Of a DNA stretch of 64,000 bases, positions 19,926-35,813 are shown in pieces. The position numbers and the translations under genes are program-made. Source of the DNA: Candidatus Poribacteria bacterium (lineage in GTDB: Bacteria; Poribacteria; WGA-4E; WGA-3G); the NCBI GenBank assembly GCA_003635195.1, contig PYIY01000190.1, positions 72,919-136,918 on the forward strand. The letters run 5' to 3'. The notes below the pieces were generated by a model. It ran no database searches. It was given only the letters and a program-made list of their open reading frames with translations, and was not told the origin of the DNA. Position 1 is the first letter of the stretch; every line of letters begins with the position of its first letter.

Positions 19926-21293
19926 TTATTCCGCTTCGGTGGGAGAGTGGTCAGATACATCTTCTTTTTCAAGGATCGCCATCTTTGTCATCCGCCAGAG
20001 TAAGTCTCCCGGACCCACAGCATGCCATTGTCCATTTACAAACGTCATGACAGCATTATTCTTCCTTTCAGGTGAGAGGGTGCTGCGAGGGAAACTGTGC
20101 TTAGCACCCCAATTCGTATAGATAAGCGGTTCACCGCTTTCCCACACCCATTCTCCTTCTTTTTCTCCATCGCTGAGACCGATCCAATAGAGATGGTTGC
20201 CAAAGAGCCCTAACAGCCACTTCTGTTCCGCTTCATCGTTAATAGCAACGAGATACGCGCCTTCAGCAGCGGCTCGGTCTTTCGCATCATTCAGATTTCT
20301 GCACCGTATCTTTTTATAAGCGTGTCCATTTGCTGGATTCACAGCCCAGGCATCTTTTTCCCATGGAGGGCGTCGTGTCTGTCTATTCGTGGTAGTTGTG
20401 GTAGTCCTCGTTACACGAGGTTTTACTTGCCCTTGTTCAACTTCAACACGAGTCGGGGCACGAGGGGCCGTTTGATTGGGTGTCGGTTTATCAGCCGGTG
20501 TTGATCCGCCGGTCAATTTACGCAGGAGATTCGGCAGCGACTCCTTAGACTGTTTTGATTGCGTTGGTGTAGCGGGAGGCGGTGACTCACCATCAAGCGT
20601 CAGCACCAAATCGTCATAACGCCCACCTGTTTCAATATCAAACGGTTCGGATTTTGCTGACAGCCCCTTATATTTCACGGCAACCGTGTAGCGTGCTGGT
20701 TCATTGTTGTTATCAACGTAATGTATAAAATATCCTTCGGAGTCGGTGGTCGCGCCTCCACTCAAACTACCGCCGCCACCTCGAATAACTTGGGAAATAG
20801 AAGCGTTAATTAACGGTTTCTGATCTTTGAAGACAACCCGCGCCCGAATCCGCATCCGCGGACGCACGGTAACCTCTATATTTTTGAAATGACTCCCCGG
20901 TTTAACAGCAAATCTGATGCCTCCGAAAGGCGGACGCCTCCCTTGATAAAGTGTTATGTCTCCGATCTTGATTGAGACGAGTTCATCGTCCGGTTCAAGG
21001 TTGAATGAAGGCTCTTCATTTTCCCCAAACTGCTGCGGTGGAATCATAATTTGAACAGGTCCCAGAGGCACATTGGTGAACGTGAAGGCTCCGTTTTCAT
21101 CAGCCTCTGACATTTGAAAAACTGGTGACAAATTGATGGTAAATCCAGGAATCGGTTTTCCCTCCGTATCAACGACGATACCAGAGAGTGTGGCTGTTTC
21201 TTCCTGTGCGACGCAAGGGATCCAAGCAGTGAGGACGAGCGATACTACAATTCCGATACGGCATATAATGTGAATGAAATTCAAACGATTCAT
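19926..21293 (-). CDS. Exported carboxypeptidase-regulatory-like + C-type lectin-like (CTLD) protein, array member a
   Basis: Signal peptide MNRLNFIHIICRIGIVVSLVLTAWIPCVAQ; LSGIVVDTEGKPIPGF; CTLD WAVNPANGHAYKKIRC...YLVAINDEAEQKWL...YWIGLSDGEKEGEWVWESGEPLIYTNW. Confidence 0.85.
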   Translation of the reverse strand: MNRLNFIHIICRIGIVVSLVLTAWIPCVAQEETATLSGIVVDTEGKPIPGFTINLSPVFQMSEADENGAFTFTNVPLGPVQIMIPPQQFGENEEPSFNLEPDDELVSIKIGDITLYQGRRPPFGGIRFAVKPGSHFKNIEVTVRPRMRIRARVVFKDQKPLINASISQVIRGGGGSLSGGATTDSEGYFIHYVDNNNEPARYTVAVKYKGLSAKSEPFDIETGGRYDDLVLTLDGESPPPATPTQSKQSKESLPNLLRKLTGGSTPADKPTPNQTAPRAPTRVEVEQGQVKPRVTRTTTTTTNRQTRRPPWEKDAWAVNPANGHAYKKIRCRNLNDAKDRAAAEGAYLVAINDEAEQKWLLGLFGNHLYWIGLSDGEKEGEWVWESGEPLIYTNWGAKHSFPRSTLSPERKNNAVMTFVNGQWHAVGPGDLLWRMTKMAILEKEDVSDHSPTEAE

Positions 21294-21363
21294 TGTGAAT
21301 TCTCCTTTGAAACGGATAAGTGCCATTGGGTTGAACTGAAGCTCACCCGAGGCTGCGTTACTG

Positions 21364-22602
21364 TTAATTGTCCGTAGATGGCACCTCAGCGGGCGGTTCT
21401 GGTCTTTCAAGAATCGCCCTCTTGATAAAATGCGCCTGCCCTCCAGCACCAGGCGCGACCACTTCCCATCTGCCGCCGAATCCGACAATAACGTAATCTT
21501 TCATCTCAGTGTTGCCACCGTCTCGTTCATCCTCGCCCCAGTTGGTATATGTGACAGGTTCCCCACTGTGCCAGATCCATTGCCCTTCCTCAGCGTCATC
21601 GCTGAGTCCAATCCAAAAACGTTCTCGCTCAAAGATTCCCTGTAGCCACTCATTTTCCGCTTCATCGTTAATGGAAACGACGTAAGCATTTTCTCCGGTG
21701 GCTTGATCCATTGCATCCGCTACATCTTGACAATAAATCCTTTTGTAAGCGTGTCCGTTTGCGGGGTTCACTACCCACACAGATGGTGGATCAATAAATG
21801 CCCTTAAGAATGCATCGGATGTAGGCGGACCTACAGGACGTTCAGCCAACGGAACGGGATTGCCGTTGAGTGCTAAAAGAAGATAGATTTGCGGTTGCCC
21901 GTCATGCAAAATAAAGGGCAATGCTTTCGCAAAAAGTCCTTGATGTTCAACACCAAGCACATAGAATTGAGGGTCGTCATCTACCCTAAGATTTTCCACG
22001 AAATATCCATCCGCATCGGTTTGTGTTGTGCTACCTGAACTCCCGCTTCCACTCCCATCCAGATCCCTACGTAGTATGCGAGTATGGATTCGAGTGTTGG
22101 TAACCGGTGTTCCATCGGCAAAAACAACGCGGGCGCGGACCTGCGGTCGGATATCCATCTTCACCGTGATAACAGCATTTTTGATTTCCATCCCTGCTTC
22201 TAAGGAAAACGTCATTTCCCGAAAATGTGGATGATCATTCGGATAAAGCGTGAGTTCACCCATTTCGATAGACAAGATTTGGATTTCCGTCTGTTCACCG
22301 TGTTCACCTTCTACGACAAATCTAACGGATTCCGCTGCCATAATATCCGTGATAGAAAAGCGTCCCTCTGAATCGGTCTGTCTTTGCCAGTGCTCAACGA
22401 ATCCTTCTTCTCGTACGTTACCCATAACTTTATAGGGTTGGACCGCTATCAAAATATCAGCAACCGCATCCCCTTCTTCATTAACAACGCGTCCAGAAAC
22501 TGACGCACCTTCTTGGGCAAAGGTTGACGACGACACGAAAAGGGAAAATATTGCAATTCCGATGAGAAATCCGACACTTTGTCTGAAACTTTGAAAAGGC
22601 AT
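21364..22602 (-). CDS. Exported regulatory-like + CTLD protein, array member b
   Basis: VSGRVVNEEGDAVADI; CTLD WVVNPANGHAYKRIYC...FWIGLSDDAEEGQWIWHSGEPVTYTNW. Confidence 0.85.
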   Translation of the reverse strand: MPFQSFRQSVGFLIGIAIFSLFVSSSTFAQEGASVSGRVVNEEGDAVADILIAVQPYKVMGNVREEGFVEHWQRQTDSEGRFSITDIMAAESVRFVVEGEHGEQTEIQILSIEMGELTLYPNDHPHFREMTFSLEAGMEIKNAVITVKMDIRPQVRARVVFADGTPVTNTRIHTRILRRDLDGSGSGSSGSTTQTDADGYFVENLRVDDDPQFYVLGVEHQGLFAKALPFILHDGQPQIYLLLALNGNPVPLAERPVGPPTSDAFLRAFIDPPSVWVVNPANGHAYKRIYCQDVADAMDQATGENAYVVSINDEAENEWLQGIFERERFWIGLSDDAEEGQWIWHSGEPVTYTNWGEDERDGGNTEMKDYVIVGFGGRWEVVAPGAGGQAHFIKRAILERPEPPAEVPSTDN

Positions 22603-22640
22603 GTTAAATTCTCCTATTTGAATATTGCTGTTGATTCACG

Positions 22641-23438
22641 TCACTGAGGCGCACCGGGCAGCGTCAAAACGAGATCTTCGCGCCGTTCTCCGATGTCAAG
22701 TACAAAAGGCTCCGACGTTGTAGAAAGCCCACCATATTCTACCGACACCGTGTAGAACGCTGCCCCGTTCTTATCTACATACTTTACAAAATACCCTTGG
22801 GCATCAGTCTGCAATGTAGCTTTGAGACTGCCGCTGCCATCGTTATGTAAGTCCTGCGTTTTTATATGAATTCTAACTTCCTTGTTTGCCAGTGGTGTAC
22901 CATTGGCAAAAACAATCTTTGCGCGAACCCGCGTCCGAAACCGTACTGTGACTGCTACATTTTGGATATGGGATCCTGGCGTGATGGAGAAGGTATTTCG
23001 AGTTAAAGGCAAAGGATATGCCTCATTAGGGTGGTAAGCAAAATCTCCGATTCTGATCGAAACAATCTCATATTCTGTATCAAAGGGCACTTGACTCTGC
23101 TCATCAGGTGCCAACATAAATTGAAACTCGTCATGATAGATGTCCGTGATAGAGAAATGTCCTGTATCGTCGGTCTCCGCTGATAGAGCAGGCGTGTAAG
23201 TGTGGAACCCTGTGTTATCGTCAATTTCAAAAGGTTGGATGATTAGCGCGAGTCCAGCCACCGGACGCGCCGCCACATCAATAACGCGCCCCGAAAAAAT
23301 TGACATCCCCTCTGTTGTTATGCTTTCTGACAAGGTGGTAGGCATCTCATCCTTGGTGTCGCTACAACCGAATAAGACGCAAGTTACAATCACAACCAGA
23401 ATTACCACAATTCTATGCAAAAGATTTTGGTGTTTCAC
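22641..23438 (-). CDS. Lipoprotein with regulatory-like domain only (no CTLD), array member c
   Basis: Lipobox VLFGC; FSGRVIDVAARPVAGLALIIQPF; ends at RREDLVLTLPGAPQ where other members continue into CTLD. Confidence 0.8.
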   Translation of the reverse strand: MKHQNLLHRIVVILVVIVTCVLFGCSDTKDEMPTTLSESITTEGMSIFSGRVIDVAARPVAGLALIIQPFEIDDNTGFHTYTPALSAETDDTGHFSITDIYHDEFQFMLAPDEQSQVPFDTEYEIVSIRIGDFAYHPNEAYPLPLTRNTFSITPGSHIQNVAVTVRFRTRVRAKIVFANGTPLANKEVRIHIKTQDLHNDGSGSLKATLQTDAQGYFVKYVDKNGAAFYTVSVEYGGLSTTSEPFVLDIGERREDLVLTLPGAPQ

Positions 23439-23564: not shown

Positions 23565-24989
23565 TCACAAACCATTATTTTTCTTGGCGGGAGACTCGTC
23601 AAACACATCTACCTTTTCAAGGATCGCGAATTTTGTCACATTCCAGAACAGGTCCCCGGGACCCACAGCATGCCATTGTCCATTCAAAAACGTCATAACG
23701 GCACTATCTTTCTCTTCCGGTGAGAGCGTGCTGCGCGGAAAGCTGTGCCTGGCACCCCAATTTTCATAGGTAAGCGGTTCGCCGTTCTGCCAGACCCATT
23801 CTCCCTCTTTTTCCGCATCGCTGAGGCCGATCCAGTAGAGATGGTTGCCGAAGAGTCCTAAAACCCACTCCTGCTCTGTTTTGTCGTTAATAGCAACGAG
23901 ATGCGCGTCTTGAGCATCGGCAATATCTCGCGCTTCTTCCAGACCTTCGCACCAAATCTTTATGTAACCGTGTCCGTTTGCGGGGTTTACAGCCCATATA
24001 CCTATCTCCGAAAGGGACCGTATCTGCTGAGGTGGCGCAGAACGATGCTTTCGAGCGGCGGTAGTTTTATGAGATAGTGTTGAGGGCTCAGTTGGTTGAG
24101 CATCTGTCTGTTTATCGGATTCCGTATTAACAGGTAGAACGGCTCTTTCGAGGATTGCCTGTTTGAGAAAAGGTATACGTTTATCTTTCGGCGCGACTGC
24201 CTGCCATTTGCCGCCGCCCCACTCAGAGATGACATAATCGTTTTGCTCGGTGTTACCACCGTATCGTTCATGTGTTTCCCAGTTGGTATACGTAACAGGT
24301 TCGCCGCTGGCCCAGACCCACCTCCCCTCTTCGGCAACATCATTCAGTCCGATCCAAAAACTATCTGGGTCAAAGACACCTTGTATCCATTCGTGTTCTA
24401 CTTCATCGTTAATCGAAACGAGATAAGCATTTTCTGCGGTGGCTTGGGTGATTGCATCCATTACATTGTGGCAATCAATCCTTTTGTAAGCGTGTCCATT
24501 CATAGGGTTCACTGCCCATACCGCTGGTGGTTCGAGGAATGCTTCTAATGCAATATGTATTTGATCGGATCCCCATCTATCTATCATCGGGACTGGATTG
24601 ACTGGGTTGTCATTGAGGGTCAGAAGCAGATGGACTTCTGGTTGTCCTTTGTGCAAAATAAAGGGCGGTGCCTTCGCGAGATGCCCGTGATATGCAACAC
24701 CGAGCACATAGAACTGAGGTTTGACATCCACGTTAAGGATTTCCACAAAATATCCCTCCGCATCGGTCTGCCCTGTGCTTCCGAAACTTCCACCGCCGCT
24801 TGCATCCAAGTCTCTGTCTAACACCAGGATGTATATAGTCTCGTTGGCAATCGGTGTTCCGTCGGCATAGACGACTCGCGCGCGAATCTGCGGCCGGTTA
24901 TCCGTTTGCGCTGTCGTAACGATGTTAAAGAAAAATACGACAACCCCAGCGAAAACGCCAAGTTTTTGTTTGAAGCCTTGAAGATTCAT
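23565..24989 (-). CDS. Exported protein with truncated N-terminal module and two tandem CTLDs, array member d
   Basis: VWAVNPMNGHAYKRIDC...FWIGLNDVAEEGRWVWASGEPVTYTNW and IWAVNPANGHGYIKIWC...YWIGLSDAEKEGEWVWQNGEPLTYENW. Confidence 0.85.
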   Translation of the reverse strand: MNLQGFKQKLGVFAGVVVFFFNIVTTAQTDNRPQIRARVVYADGTPIANETIYILVLDRDLDASGGGSFGSTGQTDAEGYFVEILNVDVKPQFYVLGVAYHGHLAKAPPFILHKGQPEVHLLLTLNDNPVNPVPMIDRWGSDQIHIALEAFLEPPAVWAVNPMNGHAYKRIDCHNVMDAITQATAENAYLVSINDEVEHEWIQGVFDPDSFWIGLNDVAEEGRWVWASGEPVTYTNWETHERYGGNTEQNDYVISEWGGGKWQAVAPKDKRIPFLKQAILERAVLPVNTESDKQTDAQPTEPSTLSHKTTAARKHRSAPPQQIRSLSEIGIWAVNPANGHGYIKIWCEGLEEARDIADAQDAHLVAINDKTEQEWVLGLFGNHLYWIGLSDAEKEGEWVWQNGEPLTYENWGARHSFPRSTLSPEEKDSAVMTFLNGQWHAVGPGDLFWNVTKFAILEKVDVFDESPAKKNNGL

Positions 24990-25051
24990 AGTGAATCCGT
25001 TTTTGGGATGTTGAAGCATCAACTCAGAGATGATCGCCTCTGCTACGAACG

Positions 25052-26416
25052 TTATTGCCCGTCAAGTCCATCAGGCTTTTCAAGGATCGCCATCGCAGTC
25101 ATCCGCAAGAGTATACTTTTAGGACTAACGGCATACCATTTCCCGTCTGTGAATGTCGTAACGGCGTAGTCTCTTTCGTCGGCATCTGAGACTTCAGAAA
25201 AGAAATCATCAGGTAACCAGTTTTCATAAGTGAGCGGTTCGCCGTTATCCCACTGCCACTGTCCTTCTTTTTTCGCATCGCTAAGCCCTATCCAATAGAA
25301 CTCATGTCCAAAAACCGCTGAGAGCCACGCCTGCTCCTCAGCATCATTAATCGTGACGAGATGCGCTTTTTCTTCTGTCGCTTGGGCAACAGCAGCGTCG
25401 CGAGACTCGCACGGAACTCTTTTATAAGCATGTCCATTGGCAGGATTGACGATCCAAGCGGCATCAAATGCGGGAACTGATATCGGTTTGGGTGACGGGA
25501 AATCAGTGGATCGATTGAATGGCATCCTCTGAGGTGGTGGTTCAGGGGCAATCGGTTCGCTGTCAAAAGTGAAAGTGAGTCCATCAAGTCGATCCCCCGG
25601 CTTAAGAAGCACAGGTCCAGCCGTCGCCTCAAGTTCTTGGTACGCCACCGAAAATGTGTAGTTTGCAGTGTCATCTTTCTCATCCAAATTAAAGAGAAAG
25701 TAGCCATCAGCATCTGTGCGGGGATTTCCGCCTGAACTTCCATGTCCCTGCCCATCTGCCCGAGTGTAATTGAAAGCGAGGCGGAGTCGCGCATTGCGGA
25801 GCGGTGTTCCGTCTTTGAAAAGGACGCGCCCCCGAATCCGCATCCGAGGTTGCACAATAACTTTCACGTTTTTAATATCGGATCCCGGTTCAACACTAAA
25901 CCCGATCCGACTAAAGTCATTACGCGGATAGAAGGTGATACCGCGGATGTCAATAGATAAAACCTCATAGTCGGGTTCAAAATCGTCCGTTTCCATCTCT
26001 GTAACGCCACTCGTGTATATCGCAGCGAAATCCTTCTCTTCCATAGCTTTCGCAATTTTTGTCTCGAGATCCTTTGGAAACAGTGCATCCACATTCTGAG
26101 GGAGTGCGCTGAAATACGACATCCTTGCATCAATACCTGTAATGGAAAACCGTCCCTCTGCATCTGTACGTGCGCGTCGCGTAGTTGGATAGCTCATTGG
26201 AGAAAAAGCGGGGTGAATCCCGGGTCCGATAGCCATCGTGGGGCCAATCATAACGGGTAACTCCGCGACTGGATTCCCTTCTACATCAATGACGCGCCCA
26301 GAGAAAGTGCCTGTCTCCGCTTCCGCAGCAATACTATGTGAACCTAAACCGATGAAAAACAAAACAACTGTTATTAATAAGAACAAACCTTTTGTGTAGG
26401 GTAAACGTTTCATCAT
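25052..26416 (-). CDS. Exported regulatory-like + CTLD protein, array member e
   Basis: FSGRVIDVEGNPVAELPVMIGP; CTLD WIVNPANGHAYKRVPC...YWIGLSDAKKEGQWQWDNGEPLTYENW. Confidence 0.85.
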   Translation of the reverse strand: MMKRLPYTKGLFLLITVVLFFIGLGSHSIAAEAETGTFSGRVIDVEGNPVAELPVMIGPTMAIGPGIHPAFSPMSYPTTRRARTDAEGRFSITGIDARMSYFSALPQNVDALFPKDLETKIAKAMEEKDFAAIYTSGVTEMETDDFEPDYEVLSIDIRGITFYPRNDFSRIGFSVEPGSDIKNVKVIVQPRMRIRGRVLFKDGTPLRNARLRLAFNYTRADGQGHGSSGGNPRTDADGYFLFNLDEKDDTANYTFSVAYQELEATAGPVLLKPGDRLDGLTFTFDSEPIAPEPPPQRMPFNRSTDFPSPKPISVPAFDAAWIVNPANGHAYKRVPCESRDAAVAQATEEKAHLVTINDAEEQAWLSAVFGHEFYWIGLSDAKKEGQWQWDNGEPLTYENWLPDDFFSEVSDADERDYAVTTFTDGKWYAVSPKSILLRMTAMAILEKPDGLDGQ

Positions 26417-26444: not shown

Positions 26445-28481
26445 TTACTGCTTCACCGGCAGATTTTCTTTCTCAATCAGTGCTGTCCGAATTAGGGATA
26501 TTCCGCCATGTCCGGGTCCAAAGTCTTCCCATTTCCCTGAAGGACCTATAATAACATAATCCTCTTCTCCGAGACTGGTATCGCCGGGTTCTTGAAGTCC
26601 CCAGTTTGTGTAGGTTACCGGTTCACCGTTGTCCCAGATCCATTGTCCCTCTTGCGCGATGTCGTTAAGACCAATCCAACTCGGTTGACCGCCAAAGACG
26701 GCTTGCAGCCACTTCTGTTCCGCTTCGTCGTTGATGGTAACAAGGTACCCACCTTCTGCAGCGGCTTGCGCTTGCGCATCTTCCCAATCCGCACACTGAA
26801 TCCTTTTGTAAGCGTGACCATTTTCTGGACGGACTACCCATACGTCTTGTAGGCTAGCACTCGCTACCGGGCGGGAACCCCTTGTTGAGGCCGACGCACT
26901 CGCGAAATCCCCGCGTCGCGGACGCAAAGGTGAGGCAGTCATGTCCTCAAACGTCAAAACAACCTCGTGCGTTTGATCTCCGGGTTTAAGGATAATCGGT
27001 TTGACGTTTACTGTTTGTCCTTGATATGTGATAGACAGCATGTAAACTGTTGGTCCCTCTAAATCCCTCTCCGCATAGTGCGTAAAGTACCCTTCGGCAT
27101 CTGTATGAGCACTCCCGTCGCTGGAGGAATTTCCGTATAAACTCACTGTTCGTAAGCGGCGTTTGACTCTTGTATTGACAATTGGTGTTCCATCTATGCG
27201 CTGCACCCTGCAACGAATATGTGGCTGCCGCACTATAACTTCAATGTTTTCAATACGTCTCCCCGGACTCGTGGCAAAGACAATTCCACGATCATGCATG
27301 CCACTCGGATAAAAAAATGATCCTCCGATTTGAACTTTTAAAATCCGGACATCGGATCTGTCGAATGGAAATAGCGACAATAGGACGGGCCCATCAATAA
27401 CGCTGGCGATAGTGAAATGACCCGATGCATCGCTTTCCGCTTGAGATGACGCGGCGTTGCGTTCTCGAATTGGGAACCAAGCACCATTGCCATCTATAAC
27501 AGGCCTAAGGGCTATTTTGATCCCAGAAACCGGTTCTCCTGTTTCATCAAGAATACGACCAGAGGCAGATGGAAATAAAGTTGCGTCAGGTTTCTGGTTG
27601 ACCTCATTATTTTTATTCCTTGTATCCGCATTACCGAATTGATTCCGCACGTCCGGTTTGGCAGCAAGGTTTAGCACTACTGGGGCTTCAATCAATTCAA
27701 TTGTCATCTCTGACATCGCATCGAAACTGTACGGTTTCTGGAAACGCGATAAGTATTGATTATTGGCACCTAACATCACAAATACTAAGGCTACTGTAGA
27801 AGCAGCGATCGCCCAAGGTGTCAGCGGTCTACCGCCGGACGGAACTGCAGGTTTCAGGCGTGAAATCTCTCGCATGATGTTCTCCGAGAGATGCGGTGTA
27901 ATTTGAAAATTGTCTAAAACCTCGCGAATCATTGGCGCCTCCTTCTTTAAACGCTGTTGCGCACGGCGGAGGCGACTCCGAATCGTATTTTCCGATACAC
28001 CCAGAAACGCGCCAATCTCTACACTCGACATTTCACCGAAGTAATGCAGTGTGAGGACGGTCCGTTCACTCTCTTGGAGTTTCGCAAGCAACTTTTTGAC
28101 GGCTTCGCGGCGGGTTTCTACGGCTGTCTGTTCGTTTTCTTCAATGACATATCCCGAGTACGTCGCTCTTTCTAACTCCGCACTGCTCGTTTCTTCAAGG
28201 GACTGGGTCCGTAGACGCTTTTTACGCAGCCACGTGCGGCAGTGATTCGCGGCAATTACATAAAGCCAACTCGCAAAACTCTGTGGTTTTTTCAGCGTTG
28301 CTAATCCCTGATATGCCTTTAGGAATGTATCCTGTGTAATCTCCTCGGCGATGTGGAAATCTCCAATCTTACGCCACACAAGCGCGTGAACCGACTTTTG
28401 GTGCTTTTTGACAAGTTCACTGAAGGCAGTATCATCACCATCAAGAACACGGTGGATAAGTTCAACATCAATATTTTTCAT
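26445..28481 (-). CDS. ECF sigma factor - TM helix - regulatory-like domain - CTLD fusion protein, array member f
   Basis: Sigma region 2 (AEEITQDTFLKAYQGLATLKKPQSFASWLYVIAANHCRTWLRKKR) and region 4 (LQESERTVLTLHYFGEMSSVEIGAFLGVSENTIRSRLRRAQQRLKK) at about 27939..28481; TM PWAIAASTVALVFVMLGA about 27765..27818; ASGRILDETGEPVSGI; CTLD about 26448..26843; one uninterrupted ORF. Confidence 0.93.
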   Translation of the reverse strand: MKNIDVELIHRVLDGDDTAFSELVKKHQKSVHALVWRKIGDFHIAEEITQDTFLKAYQGLATLKKPQSFASWLYVIAANHCRTWLRKKRLRTQSLEETSSAELERATYSGYVIEENEQTAVETRREAVKKLLAKLQESERTVLTLHYFGEMSSVEIGAFLGVSENTIRSRLRRAQQRLKKEAPMIREVLDNFQITPHLSENIMREISRLKPAVPSGGRPLTPWAIAASTVALVFVMLGANNQYLSRFQKPYSFDAMSEMTIELIEAPVVLNLAAKPDVRNQFGNADTRNKNNEVNQKPDATLFPSASGRILDETGEPVSGIKIALRPVIDGNGAWFPIRERNAASSQAESDASGHFTIASVIDGPVLLSLFPFDRSDVRILKVQIGGSFFYPSGMHDRGIVFATSPGRRIENIEVIVRQPHIRCRVQRIDGTPIVNTRVKRRLRTVSLYGNSSSDGSAHTDAEGYFTHYAERDLEGPTVYMLSITYQGQTVNVKPIILKPGDQTHEVVLTFEDMTASPLRPRRGDFASASASTRGSRPVASASLQDVWVVRPENGHAYKRIQCADWEDAQAQAAAEGGYLVTINDEAEQKWLQAVFGGQPSWIGLNDIAQEGQWIWDNGEPVTYTNWGLQEPGDTSLGEEDYVIIGPSGKWEDFGPGHGGISLIRTALIEKENLPVKQ

Positions 28482-28598
28482 AAATCACCTCCGATTGCTT
28501 TATAGTGACGCTTGTTAAGGGTAAAATCGGTGCATAATCATTAAAAAAAATAAGAGGGTGTGAAAATAAAAAAAGCGATAAGGTGTTATGTGTCGCGT

Positions 28599-30032
28599 TT
28601 ATTGTCTTTCTGCAGCGGATGGATTGTCAAGTACATCTGCTTTTTCAAGGATCGCCATCTCTGTCATATCCCAGATAACACTGTCGGGACTCACCGCATA
28701 CCACTTTCCATCAGAGAGCGTCATGACGGCATAGTCTCTTTTATTGGCATCTAAAGATTCAGAAAAGAATTCATTGGGTAACCAGTTGGCATAGGTAATA
28801 GGGTCGCCGTTGTCCCATTTCCACCATTTTTTTGCTCGCTTAGAAAGCGCACCCGTCGTGGGAACGCGACTGAGTCCGATCCAATAGAACTTGTGTCCAA
28901 AAACCGCTTCCAACCACGCTTGCTCCGCAGTATCATTAATCGCGACGAGATGCGCCTTTTCTTCGGTAGCTTGGGCAATCGCGTCGTCGCGAGTTTCGCA
29001 GTGAACTCTTTTATAGGCGTGACCATTTTCGGGATTGACGACCCATACATCATGAGATGCTGCTGGTACTGCCGGTATTTCCCATGCCGGTGAAAGCGGT
29101 TCCAACTCATCAGTTTCGATTTTTTCAGGCAGTTGCTTGGGCGGAATCGGTTCGCTATCAAACGTTAATGTCAACCCATCGAACCGGTCCCCCGGATCAA
29201 GCCGAATCGGCTCAGCTTTCACAGTAAGACTTTGGTATTCCACCGAAAACGTGTAGAACGCAGCAGCATCCTTCTCATCTATATAATAAACAAAATAGCC
29301 TTCAGTGTCCGTCCACAAATTTCCACCGGAGTCGCTGGAACCGGAGCCATCTATAGTTCGAGAACGAGCGTAGAGGCCGACGCGCGTATTGGCAAGTGGT
29401 GTTCCATCTTTGAAAAGGACGCGCGCCCGAACCCGCATCCGGGGTTGCACTGTGACTTCCACATCCTTCATAAGCGCGCCCGATTTGACACCAAAAGCGA
29501 TTTGATCGTAATCGGTGCGCGGGTATAGGGTTAACCCTTGGACGCGAATGAACAAAATTTCAACGTCTGGCTCAAAATCCTCTGAAGTCATGCCGAAGTT
29601 ACTGGAATCGAATGCCTCTATCTCGTCTGCTGTGGTCTCTCCCCAATCTCTGCCGGATGTGAACTCATCTACAATCTTTTCAAAGTCTTCGGGCAGGCGT
29701 TTATCTATGTCGTTCGGAAGGGCACCGATGTACACAGGACCCGAGGGGACATCCGTTACGGAAAATCGACCTTCTCGGTCTGTGCGTGCACGGCGCAACT
29801 GTGCGTGCTCATACGGTAAAATTACTGTCCGCATGTATCCAGTGCCATCAACATCAAGAGGCGCAATAAATATCGGTAACCCGACAACTGGATTTCCATT
29901 GAGATCGACAACGCGTCCGGTGACGGTCCCCGTATTTTTCTGAGCAACAGCGGACGAAACGAAGCTGATGAGAGACGCAACTATCATCATTAGGAATAAT
30001 AAAGTTTGCCTTTTAGAATCTGAGCATTTCAT
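28599..30032 (-). CDS. Exported regulatory-like + CTLD protein, array member g
   Basis: VTGRVVDLNGNPVVGLPIFIAP; CTLD VWVVNPENGHAYKRVHC...YWIGLSRVPTTGALSKRAKKWWKWDNGDPITYANW. Confidence 0.85.
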   Translation of the reverse strand: MKCSDSKRQTLLFLMMIVASLISFVSSAVAQKNTGTVTGRVVDLNGNPVVGLPIFIAPLDVDGTGYMRTVILPYEHAQLRRARTDREGRFSVTDVPSGPVYIGALPNDIDKRLPEDFEKIVDEFTSGRDWGETTADEIEAFDSSNFGMTSEDFEPDVEILFIRVQGLTLYPRTDYDQIAFGVKSGALMKDVEVTVQPRMRVRARVLFKDGTPLANTRVGLYARSRTIDGSGSSDSGGNLWTDTEGYFVYYIDEKDAAAFYTFSVEYQSLTVKAEPIRLDPGDRFDGLTLTFDSEPIPPKQLPEKIETDELEPLSPAWEIPAVPAASHDVWVVNPENGHAYKRVHCETRDDAIAQATEEKAHLVAINDTAEQAWLEAVFGHKFYWIGLSRVPTTGALSKRAKKWWKWDNGDPITYANWLPNEFFSESLDANKRDYAVMTLSDGKWYAVSPDSVIWDMTEMAILEKADVLDNPSAAERQ

Positions 30033-30089
30033 AGTTTTCTCCTCACAAAGCACTGTTGGAAATAGCCGCTATAGAATGAGACCTAACGT

Positions 30090-31352
30090 TCATTCCCTCA
30101 CAGGCAGTTCTTCCTTTTCAAGGAGGACGGACTCAATAATAAAATGCCATCGGACATCTCCGGGACCAATGTCCACCCATTGGTCGGCGAACAGGATGAC
30201 ATAATCTTCATCACCTTTATCGGTATCCTGCGGTTCGGACATTGCCCAATTTGTATATGTGACGGGTTCTCCGCTGTGCCATTGCCACTGTCCCTCTTCC
30301 TCAACATCGCTAAGTCCAATTAAAATGCGATGCGTGACGAAAACCTGTTCCAGCCAGTTTTGTTCCACTTCATCGTTAATAGAGACAAGGTAAGCATTTT
30401 CTTTGCTTGCTTGCGCAATAGCATCTTCCACGCCACTAAAACGGATTTTTTTGTAGGCGTGCCCATTTGCTGGATTGACGACCCACACCCCTCCCGCGTC
30501 AAGCCCGCCACCAACCCGCGCTGACGCGCCAGCATGGAAACGAGGGAGAGCGTTCCGAGGTATATCAGGAGACAGTGGGACCTCGAAAGTGAAGACTACT
30601 TCGTGAAATAGATCCTCAGGTTTGACCACAATTGGATCTAACTGCACTTGATGCTCCTGATATGTCACAGACAAAAAGTAAAATGCGGGACTATTCATAT
30701 ATCTCGTCATATATTGTAAAAAACTTCCCTCAATATCTGTTTCAATGCTCTGTGAACCACCACTATCGTATTCTCCATCTAAACTGAGTTTCCTTATCCT
30801 GAGCTTGATACGTTGTGCATTGGCGAGTGGACTCCCGTCCATCTTCAGAACTTTTCCTCGGAGTTGTAGAAAACGCTGCACTGTGACCTCAACGTCTTCA
30901 ATGTGCTCACCCGGCTCCGCAGAAAATATAACGCCACGTCCCCATGATGCTTCAGGCGCATAGAGAAACATGTCGCCGATTTGGACCTTCAAAATTTCCG
31001 CCTCCGGACTATTATACGGAAACAATCCTAACAATACCGGACCGGCAATGGCATCCGTAATAACGAAACGCCCCTCTGAATCAGTTTCCGCTTGGAACGC
31101 CATCGGATCGCCTTGCCGTCCATGTTCCTCGACCTCAAACGCAATTGGAAACCATGCGCCATGACCGTCTTGGACAGGAACAATAACTACCGTAAGTCCG
31201 GCAATTGGCTGTCCTACTGCATCAATAACGCGACCGGAGAGTGTGGTCAACGCATCGGTCTGTGCGTTGCTCTCCCAAACAACTGTGAGGCAAAAAACTA
31301 CAATTCCAACCAAAAGTGGAGCTGCTTGTCTTCTGAAACATAAACGTCTCAC
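30090..31352 (-). CDS. Exported regulatory-like + CTLD protein, array member h (closest relative of f ectodomain)
   Basis: LSGRVIDAVGQPIAGLTVVIVPVQDGHGAWFPI; CTLD VWVVNPANGHAYKKIRF...ILIGLSDVEEEGQWQWHSGEPVTYTNW. Confidence 0.85.
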   Translation of the reverse strand: MRRLCFRRQAAPLLVGIVVFCLTVVWESNAQTDALTTLSGRVIDAVGQPIAGLTVVIVPVQDGHGAWFPIAFEVEEHGRQGDPMAFQAETDSEGRFVITDAIAGPVLLGLFPYNSPEAEILKVQIGDMFLYAPEASWGRGVIFSAEPGEHIEDVEVTVQRFLQLRGKVLKMDGSPLANAQRIKLRIRKLSLDGEYDSGGSQSIETDIEGSFLQYMTRYMNSPAFYFLSVTYQEHQVQLDPIVVKPEDLFHEVVFTFEVPLSPDIPRNALPRFHAGASARVGGGLDAGGVWVVNPANGHAYKKIRFSGVEDAIAQASKENAYLVSINDEVEQNWLEQVFVTHRILIGLSDVEEEGQWQWHSGEPVTYTNWAMSEPQDTDKGDEDYVILFADQWVDIGPGDVRWHFIIESVLLEKEELPVRE

Positions 31353-31381
31353 TCTTTTCTCCTCCTTTCGTTGCTCCCTTC

Positions 31382-32698
31382 TTATTTAGAGGCACCAGCG
31401 ATGAAGTTTTCTTTTTCCAGAATCGCTTTTTCGATTAGACCCGCAACCGAACTCCACTGATGCACCATCTGCCATTTTCCTGTTCTGCCAATAAGGACAG
31501 TGTAATTCGGGCTCGCACCGTCATTTTCGGTGGGTTCATCTCCGTCAACAGCGTTCTGTGAAAACTCCCAGTTAGTGTAGGTGACCAGTTCGCCAGTATT
31601 CCAGTATAGGTTACTCTCTTTTGCCGACCCTGTTAGCCCAATCCAAAAGCCTTCACGTCCAAAGGCTTTGAAGTCCCATTGTTGTGCTGCTTCATCACCC
31701 GAAAAAGTTTTTCGTCCAAAGACTTCAAAGAGCCATTCTTGCTCTGCTACGTCGTTGATAGCGACAAGGTAGGCACCTTGTGCCTTTGCTCGCGCTTCTG
31801 CTTCCTCACGGGTCTTGCAACGAATCACTTTGTATGCGTGTCGGTTGTCGGGGTTGATCGCCCACATGCCCTCGCGTTCCCGCTTCTGGGCGGCTTCAGC
31901 ACGACCTGGGTCGTAGCCGCGAGGCTGTATTACTTTTTGGGGTTTAACGGGTGGTTTGGGCGCGGCTAATACTGCTGGTTTAAATATCGGTTTCACCACG
32001 GCTTTTGAAGGTAACTGCTTATTGGCATCATCGCTAAGTGTTAAGACAAGTCCATCAAGCCGCTGTCCATCTTCGAGTAAAATTGGCTTGGATTCTGCGA
32101 ACTGTCCTTGATACGCTACGGTGAAAGTGTAGAAAGCCGGTTCCTCCACGTATTGAACAAAGTAACCATCAGCATCAAGATTTCTTGGACCACTACTGCT
32201 TCTTGTGCGTCTACCCTCTGCACTACGTTGGTTTATCTCAAACTGAACCTCAGCATCGCGAAGTGGAGTGCCATCCGCGGAAAGGACGCGCCCACGGATA
32301 CGCATCCGAAGGCGGACAGTTATCTTTACATCTTTAACATCTGCTCCCGGTTCAACTGCAATTGGAAAGCTGCCTTTGTGGAAAAAGTGATACACCGGGT
32401 CAAGGTAAAAGGTTACCCCTTCTACTTCAACGGCGCGAATTTCATAATCCGCGTGTATAGGGGATAACATCAGTCTACTAACTGAAGCTGCGGCAATTTC
32501 GGGCATCGAAAAAACACCCATTTCATCTGTCTCGGAGAGTTGTGGCAGAAGAGCGACAGTGACACCAGAAACAGGTACGCCCGATTCATCGACCACTCTG
32601 CCTGAAAAGCTTGCTGCAACGCTCGGCAAGGATGCAGAAAGCAAAAGCGCAACACTTCCAACGAAAACTACAATCAGCGCGAAGTAAGAACGGTTCAT
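31382..32698 (-). CDS. Exported regulatory-like + CTLD protein, array member i
   Basis: ASFSGRVVDESGVPVSGVTVALL; CTLD MWAINPDNRHAYKVIRC...FWIGLTGSAKESNLYWNTGELVTYTNW. Confidence 0.85.
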   Translation of the reverse strand: MNRSYFALIVVFVGSVALLLSASLPSVAASFSGRVVDESGVPVSGVTVALLPQLSETDEMGVFSMPEIAAASVSRLMLSPIHADYEIRAVEVEGVTFYLDPVYHFFHKGSFPIAVEPGADVKDVKITVRLRMRIRGRVLSADGTPLRDAEVQFEINQRSAEGRRTRSSSGPRNLDADGYFVQYVEEPAFYTFTVAYQGQFAESKPILLEDGQRLDGLVLTLSDDANKQLPSKAVVKPIFKPAVLAAPKPPVKPQKVIQPRGYDPGRAEAAQKREREGMWAINPDNRHAYKVIRCKTREEAEARAKAQGAYLVAINDVAEQEWLFEVFGRKTFSGDEAAQQWDFKAFGREGFWIGLTGSAKESNLYWNTGELVTYTNWEFSQNAVDGDEPTENDGASPNYTVLIGRTGKWQMVHQWSSVAGLIEKAILEKENFIAGASK

Positions 32699-32754
32699 TG
32701 GGATGTCTCCTTCTGTAAAATATGTCAGAAACGTTAGGAGGGTATAAAGCGTAA

Positions 32755-34254
32755 CTACTCTTCATCCTCTTCATCAGATGCTTCCATAGCGGGTGCTGTA
32801 GACACTAAACCATCCTTTTCGATGATTGCCTCTCGTGTGCTTCGCCAGAAATGGCTTTCAGGCCCCACAGACAGCCACTCACTGTCCCTAAAAGTCATCA
32901 CAACATAGTCTTTTTCGGTGTCTGGAAGGGTGTCAGGGAAGAGCGGTTGGGTTAACCAGTTCGTGTAGGTTACGGGTTCACCGCTGTCCCATTGCCATGT
33001 TCCCTCTTTTTCTACATCGGTAAGTCCGATCCATGTGGAGTGGCTCCGAAAGATTATCTGAAGCCAGTGCTGCTCTGTTTCATCGTTAATGGAGACGAGA
33101 TGGGCACCTTCTTCAACAGCCTTCTGTTGTGCATCGTGCCAGTCCCGACACTGTATCTTTTTGTAAGCGTGCCCGTTTGCGGGGTTAATGACCCACACAC
33201 TTTTCGGCGGTTTTGGGGGTTGCGGTGGCACAACTGCTCGGACTTTAGGCTCGACTTCAATCTGTTCAACAACAACGTTTTCAGCACCAGCAGGGATTTT
33301 ACCCTTTTCAATCGGGCCACCGACCCCAACTTTCGGATCAGTCGGTCGTTCGATATCAGGCGGGTTACCGTCGAGTGTTATAACCAGATTCTCTGGTTCC
33401 ACGCCATCTTTGAGCAGGAAAGGACCTGCACCTCCGGCGAGATCGTTATATTTCACGGAAAGCGTGTAAAACCCTGGTTCATCCCTATATTCCGCAAAAT
33501 TACCATCGGCATCGGTAAAAAACTCTGTACCGTGAGTGCCACCGCTTCTCGGATTATCTTCTTGCCCATGTCGCATGCTGAGGTGTCCATTAGCGTTGAC
33601 AAGAGGGGTACCGTCGGCATAAACAATTCGTGCACGGATCTGCAACCGCTGCTTGACCGTGATTTTGACATTTTCAAGCGTCACGCCGGGTTTCAGTTCA
33701 AACGTGAGTCCTTCAAAAAAATGAAACTCCTCTGTGTCGTAGAAGAAGGTGACCTTCCCGACCTGAAGCGTGAGGATTTTCTTATCTGGTTCAAGCCTCC
33801 CAAGCCGCATGAATTCAGGTGGGACCTCCCCTCCTTCTTGAATTTTATCAGGGTCCATCATTTCAAAAGCCTCTAACATAGCACTCGAGACGGCGTTTAA
33901 TTGGACAAGCCCGGGTTGGATATTAGTGACGGTGAAAGTGCCATCTGGATTGGTTTGCGCTTTGGTTGTGGTGCGCGGCATTCCTGGACCTTCCATGCCT
34001 TCAGGAGGCATCTGAAACCGGGGCATAAAATCATCTTCTGGCTGTAGAAGACCTCTCTGGAGTTTCATAGGTCGAATCGTAAACGTAAACCCAGCAACGG
34101 GGTTCCCTTCTGGATCGACGACTTTGCCGGATATTCCACTGGGTGCTTGGAGTGCTGGTTCCGCAGGAATCTGTGCGGCTGCAATGCTTATTATGGTGAG
34201 TAAAAGGATCGGTGTTAACGTTATGAGTTTGGGTGTGGTGTAGGTCCAACGCAT
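32755..34254 (-). CDS. Exported regulatory-like + CTLD protein, array member j
   Basis: ISGKVVDPEGNPVAGFTFTIRP; CTLD VWVINPANGHAYKKIQC...TWIGLTDVEKEGTWQWDSGEPVTYTNW. Confidence 0.85.
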   Translation of the reverse strand: MRWTYTTPKLITLTPILLLTIISIAAAQIPAEPALQAPSGISGKVVDPEGNPVAGFTFTIRPMKLQRGLLQPEDDFMPRFQMPPEGMEGPGMPRTTTKAQTNPDGTFTVTNIQPGLVQLNAVSSAMLEAFEMMDPDKIQEGGEVPPEFMRLGRLEPDKKILTLQVGKVTFFYDTEEFHFFEGLTFELKPGVTLENVKITVKQRLQIRARIVYADGTPLVNANGHLSMRHGQEDNPRSGGTHGTEFFTDADGNFAEYRDEPGFYTLSVKYNDLAGGAGPFLLKDGVEPENLVITLDGNPPDIERPTDPKVGVGGPIEKGKIPAGAENVVVEQIEVEPKVRAVVPPQPPKPPKSVWVINPANGHAYKKIQCRDWHDAQQKAVEEGAHLVSINDETEQHWLQIIFRSHSTWIGLTDVEKEGTWQWDSGEPVTYTNWLTQPLFPDTLPDTEKDYVVMTFRDSEWLSVGPESHFWRSTREAIIEKDGLVSTAPAMEASDEEDEE

Positions 34255-34281
34255 TTCTCTATCTCCTTGTGTGTTGCGCGC

Positions 34282-35568
34282 TTAAGGTTTTTCGACATCA
34301 CCCTCCGGTGCAGGCGCGCCGATGATGAAATTCTCTTTTTCCAGAATCGCTCTCTCCGTCATGCGAATAAGTGGGTTGCCCGGGTGTGCCACCTGCCACT
34401 TTCCTGACATTCCAATAAGGACAATGTAATTCGGATTCGCATCGCTGTCTGGGGCGGGTTTGGTAATCTTGGCAGCCTCCTGTGGCGACATCCAGTTTGT
34501 ATAGGTAACCGGTTCACCGTTGTCCCACTGCTGTTTCCCCTCTTCTGAACCGCTAATCAATTCAATCCAATAGTTTTCTCGTTGTCCAAAGACTTCAAGG
34601 AGCCATTCCTGTTCAGCTTTGTCGTTGATAACGAGGAGATGTGCATCTTGGGCTGCTGCTTGCTCTTGTGCCGCTTCACGGGTTTCACAACGGATTACTT
34701 TGTAGGCGTGTCGATTGTCGGGATTGATTGCCCACATGCCTTCGCGTTCCCGTTTTCGCGCCGCTTCAAAACGGGCAGGGTCGTGGACGCGAGGCGGCGG
34801 GGCTACGACGACTCTCTCGGTTTTGGGCGGTTCCGGCTCACCGCCAAGTTTCAAAACGAGTCCATCAAGCCGTTGTCCCTCTTCAAGTAGAATCTCCTCG
34901 GATTCCACGGTCTGTCCCTGATATGTTACAGTGACGGTGTAATAGGCGGCGCCATCATCTAAGTAATCCACGAAGTATCCATCGGCATCAAGCGTTCTCG
35001 TCCCGCCACCACTACCTCTGCCCCTGCCATCTATATCGCGATGTTTGACCATAAGGTTAACATGTGCGTTGCGAAGCGGTGTGCCATCCGCGGAAAGAAC
35101 GCGCCCACGAATACGCATCCGAAGGCGAACGGTTATCTCCACGTTTTTAATATCTGCATCTGCCTCAATCGCAAAATTGACACCACCAAAATGTTGCTGC
35201 CGTTTATCTAAATAAACGGGGAACCCCTCAATCTCAACAGAGTGGACTTCGTAATCTGAATTGCGTTCAGGAAACAGTGTTAATCTGCTCACCGAAGGTG
35301 TCGTAATGTTGATAATTGAGAATGCCCCTGTTGCGTCTGTCTCACTGGGTTGTGCTGGCGGGAACATGCCTTGAAATCGCTGGTGCCGATGTGGCGGTGT
35401 GTTGCCCGGGAATGATGGAAGGGCTATGATGAGACCTTCAACAGGTTGTCCCTCCTCATCAATAACTCTGCCTGAGAAACTCGCCGCTACACTCGGCAGA
35501 GAGGTCGCAAACAAAAGCACGACGCTCCCCACAAAAATTAAAAAATGTGTGGTGTAAGGACGTTTCAT
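34282..35568 (-). CDS. Exported regulatory-like + CTLD protein, array member k
   Basis: ASFSGRVIDEEGQPVEGLIIALP; CTLD MWAINPDNRHAYKVIRC...YWIELISGSEEGKQQWDNGEPVTYTNW. Confidence 0.85.
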   Translation of the reverse strand: MKRPYTTHFLIFVGSVVLLFATSLPSVAASFSGRVIDEEGQPVEGLIIALPSFPGNTPPHRHQRFQGMFPPAQPSETDATGAFSIINITTPSVSRLTLFPERNSDYEVHSVEIEGFPVYLDKRQQHFGGVNFAIEADADIKNVEITVRLRMRIRGRVLSADGTPLRNAHVNLMVKHRDIDGRGRGSGGGTRTLDADGYFVDYLDDGAAYYTVTVTYQGQTVESEEILLEEGQRLDGLVLKLGGEPEPPKTERVVVAPPPRVHDPARFEAARKREREGMWAINPDNRHAYKVIRCETREAAQEQAAAQDAHLLVINDKAEQEWLLEVFGQRENYWIELISGSEEGKQQWDNGEPVTYTNWMSPQEAAKITKPAPDSDANPNYIVLIGMSGKWQVAHPGNPLIRMTERAILEKENFIIGAPAPEGDVEKP

Positions 35569-35673: not shown

Positions 35674-35813
35674 GTGCTATATTTCTTCTATGGATGAAGT
35701 TCCAATTACTAAAGACACAATTTGTGGACGAAAAGGGTGCATAATCTCAGTACCTACTGACAACCGTTCCTCTGACTGCTGAAACTGAATCCTTAACACA
35801 ACTATTAATTCTA

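Follow-up and report, generated by a model that had tools for sequence, protein, structure and literature searches.

A tethered ECF sigma factor with a C-type lectin-like ectodomain and its paralogue family in Poribacteria

What could a bacterial cell do with a sigma factor whose polypeptide chain continues through the membrane into a lectin domain? This question is raised by the gene P0001, located in the 64-kb window analysed here (the whole stretch of DNA, 64,000 nucleotides). A first-pass annotation had described one uninterrupted open reading frame with sigma-70 regions 2 and 4, a single transmembrane (TM) helix, a beta-sandwich region and a terminal C-type lectin-like domain (CTLD), and the domain analysis bears these elements out.

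Sigma factor, membrane helix and lectin domain in one chain

The gene and its parts are arranged as follows.
26445..28481, minus strand: sigma-TM-ectodomain-CTLD gene P0001, 678 aa, uninterrupted (ORF call; full-length orthologues)
28215..28415, minus strand: sigma-70 region 2, aa 23-89 (Pfam PF04542 Sigma70_r2, E 1.3e-13)
27951..28106, minus strand: sigma-70 region 4, aa 126-177 (Pfam PF08281 Sigma70_r4_2, E 8.9e-13)
27762..27824, minus strand: single TM helix, about aa 220-240 (hydropathy peak 220-238, KD 1.86)
27633..27761, minus strand: conserved extracytoplasmic juxtamembrane motif, aa 241-283, QYLxRFQKPYSFDAxSExTvEiidAP..KPdvrnQxG (paralogue conservation; low pLDDT, predicted disordered)
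26943..27575, minus strand: two beta-sandwich (carboxypeptidase-regulatory-like) domains, aa 303-513 (AlphaFold pLDDT mostly 75-92; Pfam PF13620 just under cut-off)
26448..26846, minus strand: CTLD, aa 546-678 (Pfam Lectin_C; PDB sequence matches; Foldseek)

Both sigma regions lie over the Pfam cut-off, and P0001 is an ECF (group 4) sigma factor in that it has regions 2 and 4 only and is related in sequence to ECF sigmas; by sequence its sigma part matches SigW of B. subtilis (5wuq, E 1e-22). The terminal domain combines a Lectin_C match over the Pfam cut-off (residues 565-653, E 2.7e-13) with a CTLD fold. Its sequence resembles PLA2R, DEC-205 and mannose receptors in the PDB, and the Foldseek matches listed are CTLDs, among them CD23 and Endo180, with TMt up to 0.83. 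The EPG/EPN/EPH and WED-type residues of the CTLD differ between orthologues. CarboxypepD_reg (307-367) narrowly misses its cut-off (31.1 vs 32.3 bits). An AlphaFold model built on a 69-row alignment (an 8-row alignment gave a poor model, pLDDT 44) is confident for the beta-sandwiches and the CTLD and moderate for the sigma part, while residues 192-302 are disordered.

The hydropathy profile has one hydrophobic peak only, which disposes of the annotation's objection that a TM helix might be missing. The proposed topology, with sigma in the cytoplasm and the lectin outside the inner membrane, holds; the surface location probably does not, since the genome encodes Omp85/BamA-type proteins and a TM helix in the inner membrane then places the ectodomain probably in the periplasm. 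A Pfam scan found no zf-HC2 or FecR-type anti-sigma domain in P0001, and the zf-HC2 matches of the genome are all located outside it.

Seven relatives in other Poribacteria assemblies match residues 1-672 or 1-678 (63-91% identical in the best segments of a contig scan), and an order-level search finds matches, mostly spanning the whole protein, in the genera g1 and g4. Among the matches listed, the relatives are Poribacteria throughout. Against three orthologues, every dN/dS value that could be computed for sigma, linker/TM, beta-sandwich and CTLD lies at 0.07-0.28 (the CTLD value for L034 was not computable, and the CTLD comparison with L036 covers 20 codons only). That sigma and lectin are separate genes, joined by an assembly or prediction artefact, has a negligible probability, even though the assembly is a draft MAG and the CTLD is broken in two g1 orthologues, by an in-frame stop (G082, L167/L036) and by a frameshift (G065, L172). 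Independent assemblies, some of them single-contig chromosomes, carry full-length orthologues, and together with the low dN/dS this rules out an artefact and the disrupting frameshift or assembly error that the annotation had allowed for. A further idea, that the CTLD is a hypervariable target of a diversity-generating retroelement (DGR), was rejected because its dN/dS is low (0.08 against the closest orthologue).

One chassis, many ectodomains and a run of lectin genes

The genome of P0001 (G000) holds about 74 relatives of its sigma part (75 rows, one a duplicate from two overlapping stretches, and some relatives clipped at contig ends). A chassis of about 300 aa, consisting of sigma, linker, TM helix and conserved juxtamembrane motif, is shared by 56 members, all 56 with the helix at the matching position. 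P0001 is thus not a lone oddity, but one of 56 TM-tethered sigma factors whose ectodomains are swapped. Conservation covers the first ~283 residues, including the extracytoplasmic motif 241-283, which is kept in paralogues with unrelated ectodomains. Beyond the chassis follow WD40, BNR/sortilin-like and Kelch propellers, LRR, CarboxypepD_reg or CTLD modules, the CTLD in P0001 only among the sigma relatives of G000. Matches to the chassis profile are strong out to family f1 among the matches listed; the weaker ones in more distant families may comprise the sigma part only.

Eight or more chassis sigma genes stand in tandem at L109 and L110 (G000:C75:995-30282). Other sigma relatives are devoid of a TM helix and are joined to a full DNA polymerase III beta clamp with three Pfam domains (L154:4678-6405, minus strand, with a close homologue at L156:6172-7902), to AhpC/TSA (L151:8913-10997), to a PD40 propeller and prolyl oligopeptidase (L158:4856-7663) or to an M61 peptidase (L161:1770-4754).

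P0001 itself sits in a same-strand run of beta-sandwich and CTLD proteins with signal-peptide-like N-termini (Pfam, gene order).
25052..26416, minus strand: CarboxypepD_reg and CTLD protein whose N-terminus is signal-peptide-like; it follows P0001 after 28 nt, probably in one operon with it
23565..25022, minus strand: double-CTLD protein, next in the run after a 29-nt gap
19926..23438, minus strand: more genes of the array (22641, a beta-sandwich alone; 21364 and 19926, each ending in a CTLD-like part)
28599..35568, minus strand: upstream array of five CarboxypepD_reg-like and CTLD proteins (28599, 30090, 31382, 32755, 34282)

The array protein 30090 shares 46-48% identity with the ectodomain of P0001. 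This resemblance to proteins encoded alongside opens another reading of the receptor, namely an export-feedback monitor: the ectodomain would mimic a client and act as an envelope-stress sensor, reporting how the lectin-like proteins encoded with it are secreted or folded, and not as a glycan sensor. In line with it, 9 of 54 chassis genes adjoin a sigma-less homologue of their own ectodomain by a strict count (a looser one, 14/54, included fragments of split sigma genes), against a shuffled mean of 1.6 and none as high in 5000 shuffles, and these neighbours mostly have signal-peptide-like starts. An HtrA-like gene and MoxR/VWA operons behind matches to the family promoter (see below) also fit. 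Most chassis genes, however, have no such neighbour and the CTLD itself is under strong selection, and we regard this reading as unlikely. Kelch-like proteins with signal-peptide-like starts (L136:6737-7813, L138:8238-9293) adjoin sigma factors with Kelch ectodomains.

The lectin run is syntenic, flanked by a pyrB/pyrD-like side (named from sequence, without a domain scan) and an MR_MLE enolase-family gene, and in all orthologous loci the sigma gene leads the run or lies within it. In g4 and some g1 genomes the run is short and headed by the fused gene; other genomes have a longer array. In five genomes the closest ectodomain homologue at the locus stands alone, as a sigma-less ORF of about 410-433 aa. 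These forms branch among the g1 fused forms at three places of the ectodomain tree, hence sigma-linked and stand-alone forms have interconverted. In two of them (L182, L183) the N-terminus most resembles the CT30090-type neighbour's signal peptide, and both loci lack CT30090 and CT28599, as would fit a deletion within the array that removed the sigma part. The fused chassis of g1 and g4 fall in different clades of the sigma tree, and a single origin of all sigma-CTLD fusions was rejected (AU test, p 0.00115 against one g1+g4 clade), which indicates separate fusions or chassis exchange. Most g4 ectodomains group with a different type of array protein. A similar ectodomain and CTLD recur in families f2 and f3 (L199, L200), carried there by a different ECF of about 33% identity that has a hydrophobic segment of its own. 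A g4 genome has a second chassis sigma (L177:10929-13058) with a CT28599-type ectodomain and no CTLD apparent in the sequence. Judged from their sequence, long f3 sigma factors (L200:11655-15392, L200:1082-4759) have a hydrophobic segment, then CarboxypepD-like modules in several copies, and end in a thioredoxin-like part.

A shared promoter and a predicted second start

Three predicted regulatory elements were located.
28503..28536, minus strand: ECF-type promoter TATGCACC-N17-GCGTCACTA, 21 nt before the P0001 ATG (top site of the window, score 17)
35710..35743, minus strand: ECF-type site with a variant -10, TATGCACC-N17-GTGTCTTTA, ahead of the leading array gene (motif scan)
27930..27943, minus strand: internal Shine-Dalgarno AGGAGG (27938-27943) and in-frame ATG of Met184 (27930-27932) (synonymous bias; sigma-less paralogue)

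The family's upstream regions have TATGCAMC-N16/17-GCGTCACTA in common, with a motif score of at least 15 before 28 of 75 family genes and before none of 750 mononucleotide shuffles. Genome-wide, the one-spacing pattern has 40 matches versus 2 for a reversed-pattern control; non-sigma genes behind them, named from sequence and not by domain scan, are MoxR/VWA-type operons, another ECF, secreted WD40 proteins and an HtrA-like gene. At L217 an HtrA/DegP-like gene lies behind a weak family promoter match with three mismatches. Of the 9 g1 fused orthologues fetched, 8 match the site of P0001 perfectly and one, L173, with a called start extended upstream, does not; the g4 fused copies carry a variant. 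All five orthologous stand-alone, sigma-less lectins reach background scores only. Presence before fused genes and absence before these lectins is strong evidence, at the sequence level, for autoregulation of P0001 through its own ECF promoter, and the promoter shared by the tethered sigmas is apparently self-activating. Having an ECF-type promoter before the own gene is a typical, though not a general, trait of ECF sigma factors. Near-identical promoters stand before several paralogues, so the P0001 site may also be read by other members of the family. Three promoters had been suggested for the window: the one at 28.5 kb is strongly supported and the one at 35.7 kb moderately, while at 23.5 kb the motif scan of the 64-kb window found no site at the threshold used. 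The array-lead promoter, similar sites to which occur in several other loci, has a variant -10, so that control of the whole array by the P0001 sigma is no more than a possibility.

Codons 179-184 of P0001 read AAG AAG GAG GCG CCA ATG. Met184 stays ATG in every fused orthologue where the site was located, preceded by AGGAGG in most, AGGA in four and GGAGG in one. At K180, AAG is preferred 33:7, the highest AAG share of 23 K columns, and KE is encoded AAGGAG in 27 of 36 cases at this site versus 16 of 69 elsewhere (p 7e-7, which overstates independence because the paralogues are related). A sigma-less paralogue, L109:17087, begins exactly at the equivalent start. Thus the internal start that the annotation had listed as a possible objection is borne out in part, but the predicted product is not a lectin with its own signal peptide replacing the fusion; likely, a sigma-less, signal-anchored TM-lectin of 495 aa is made besides it. 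One could go further and take this short form for the main product, with the fusion as a minor form or relic of an ancestral sigma/anti-sigma gene pair, a view favoured by the conserved AAGGAGG-ATG with its synonymous bias, the paralogue and the orthologous sigma-less lectins in five genomes. We consider it quite improbable, given that the sigma domain is under strong purifying selection, the full-length start has a good Shine-Dalgarno of its own, and the ECF promoter accompanies sigma and is missing where sigma is missing.

Proposed release of a tethered sigma and comparison with known systems

Domains, one TM helix, conservation, the chassis family, the shared promoter, the arrangement with lectin genes and the internal Shine-Dalgarno are direct results of computation; the ligand, the direction of the switch, proteolysis, the pairing of sigma and promoter and the role of the short product are what we infer. 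On balance it is likely that P0001 is a one-component transmembrane sigma receptor with ligand-controlled proteolytic release and self-amplification. The ECF sigma domain would be held at the cytoplasmic face of the inner membrane while the CTLD ectodomain samples the periplasm. Binding of a ligand, or its loss, would expose the conserved juxtamembrane segment to a site-1 protease, whereupon a site-2 protease, for example an RseP-like M50 enzyme (M50 site-2 proteases are encoded in the genome), would free the sigma domain. The freed sigma would recognise TATGCACC-N17-GCGTCACTA, amplify expression of its own gene and of the secreted lectins encoded downstream, and might also act on further envelope genes; the sigma-less TM-lectin could buffer the signal. 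In favour of the release model are the intact domains and TM helix, purifying selection in every part measured, the chassis in 56 paralogues, the promoter and the position in the lectin run. Against it stand the lack of a recognised anti-sigma domain between sigma and TM, the promoter similarity between paralogues and the array-lead -10 variant, the unrelated genes behind motif matches genome-wide, and lectin arrays without a sigma fusion in most related genomes.

The missing anti-sigma domain (Pfam scan) would suit a sigma factor that acts while anchored, comparable to ToxR or CadC, and is switched when a ligand makes it cluster or change conformation; reach could come from the cytoplasmic linker 182-219. 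This appears unlikely, because cleavage is what activates IutY, the characterised relative (PMC8999054), and the juxtamembrane segment is conserved but predicted disordered, as a processing site should be. The release model also has precedents to lean on by analogy: release by Prc/RseP was demonstrated for IutY, and ECF52 is proposed to be released likewise (PMC8999054, PMC5826349).

For the family as a whole the chances seem even that all of the following hold jointly: a receptor class of the Poribacteria lineage, with dozens of membrane-tethered sigmas per genome on one chassis, interchangeable sensors, a shared autoregulatory promoter class, potentially two products per gene (sigma-TM-sensor, and TM-sensor from a conserved internal ribosome site), and conversion between sigma-linked and secreted forms through recombination with neighbours. 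This suggests that many one-chain sigma receptors may sense the envelope environment in an uncultured, sponge-associated phylum, a counterpart to the two-component or RsgI-type arrays found elsewhere. One chassis, one promoter class and natural sigma-plus and sigma-minus orthologues make silencing, activation and sensor exchange of a tethered sigma testable in common laboratory bacteria.

RsgI ectodomains sense carbohydrate. Sigma-I/RsgI systems are paralogous like the family described here, but sigma and membrane anti-sigma are separate proteins there (PMC10575876), while P0001 is one chain. Animal C-type lectin domains (CD23, Endo180, DEC-205) share fold and sequence likeness with the P0001 CTLD and have no sigma. 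In Planctomycetes, ECF sigma factors with WD40 repeats likewise form expanded families (PMC8567305). A 2014 paper on Poribacteria covers WD40 and LRR proteins but makes no mention of sigma; our literature search found no published account of extracytoplasmic sigma factors in Poribacteria, and no paper on this architecture among the literature on Poribacteria and sigma factors. Architectures of sigma, TM and carbohydrate-binding module are nevertheless described, although the annotation knew of none with sigma, TM and CTLD. ECF52 (SCO4117 of Streptomyces coelicolor) combines sigma, zinc finger, TM and a carbohydrate-binding module, and autoregulation has been proposed for it (PMC5826349). Like P0001 it unites an ECF sigma, a TM helix and an extracytoplasmic lectin- or carbohydrate-type domain in one chain. 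It differs by the zinc finger between sigma and TM, where P0001 has no zf-HC2 in the Pfam scan, by a proline-rich linker and by a different binding module (smart00776), the CTLD of P0001 being a lectin-type domain of another family that may bind carbohydrate. ECF52 is reported only from Actinobacteria (PMC5826349) and is single-copy in S. coelicolor, whereas P0001 and its listed relatives are poribacterial and P0001 is one of ~74 paralogues. IutY (ECF243) of Pseudomonas putida, an iron-starvation cell-surface-signalling factor with a fused anti-sigma (PMC8999054), likewise joins its sigma to a membrane segment and a regulatory part in the periplasm within a single chain, but its anti-sigma is FecR-like, which the Pfam scan does not find in P0001, and its release is shown where that of P0001 is presumed. 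Without zinc finger or FecR part, and not being actinobacterial, P0001 is not counted here with either the ECF52 or the IutY group; by analogy it would work like them in outline, and what appears to be new here is the scale, the modularity and the internal start.
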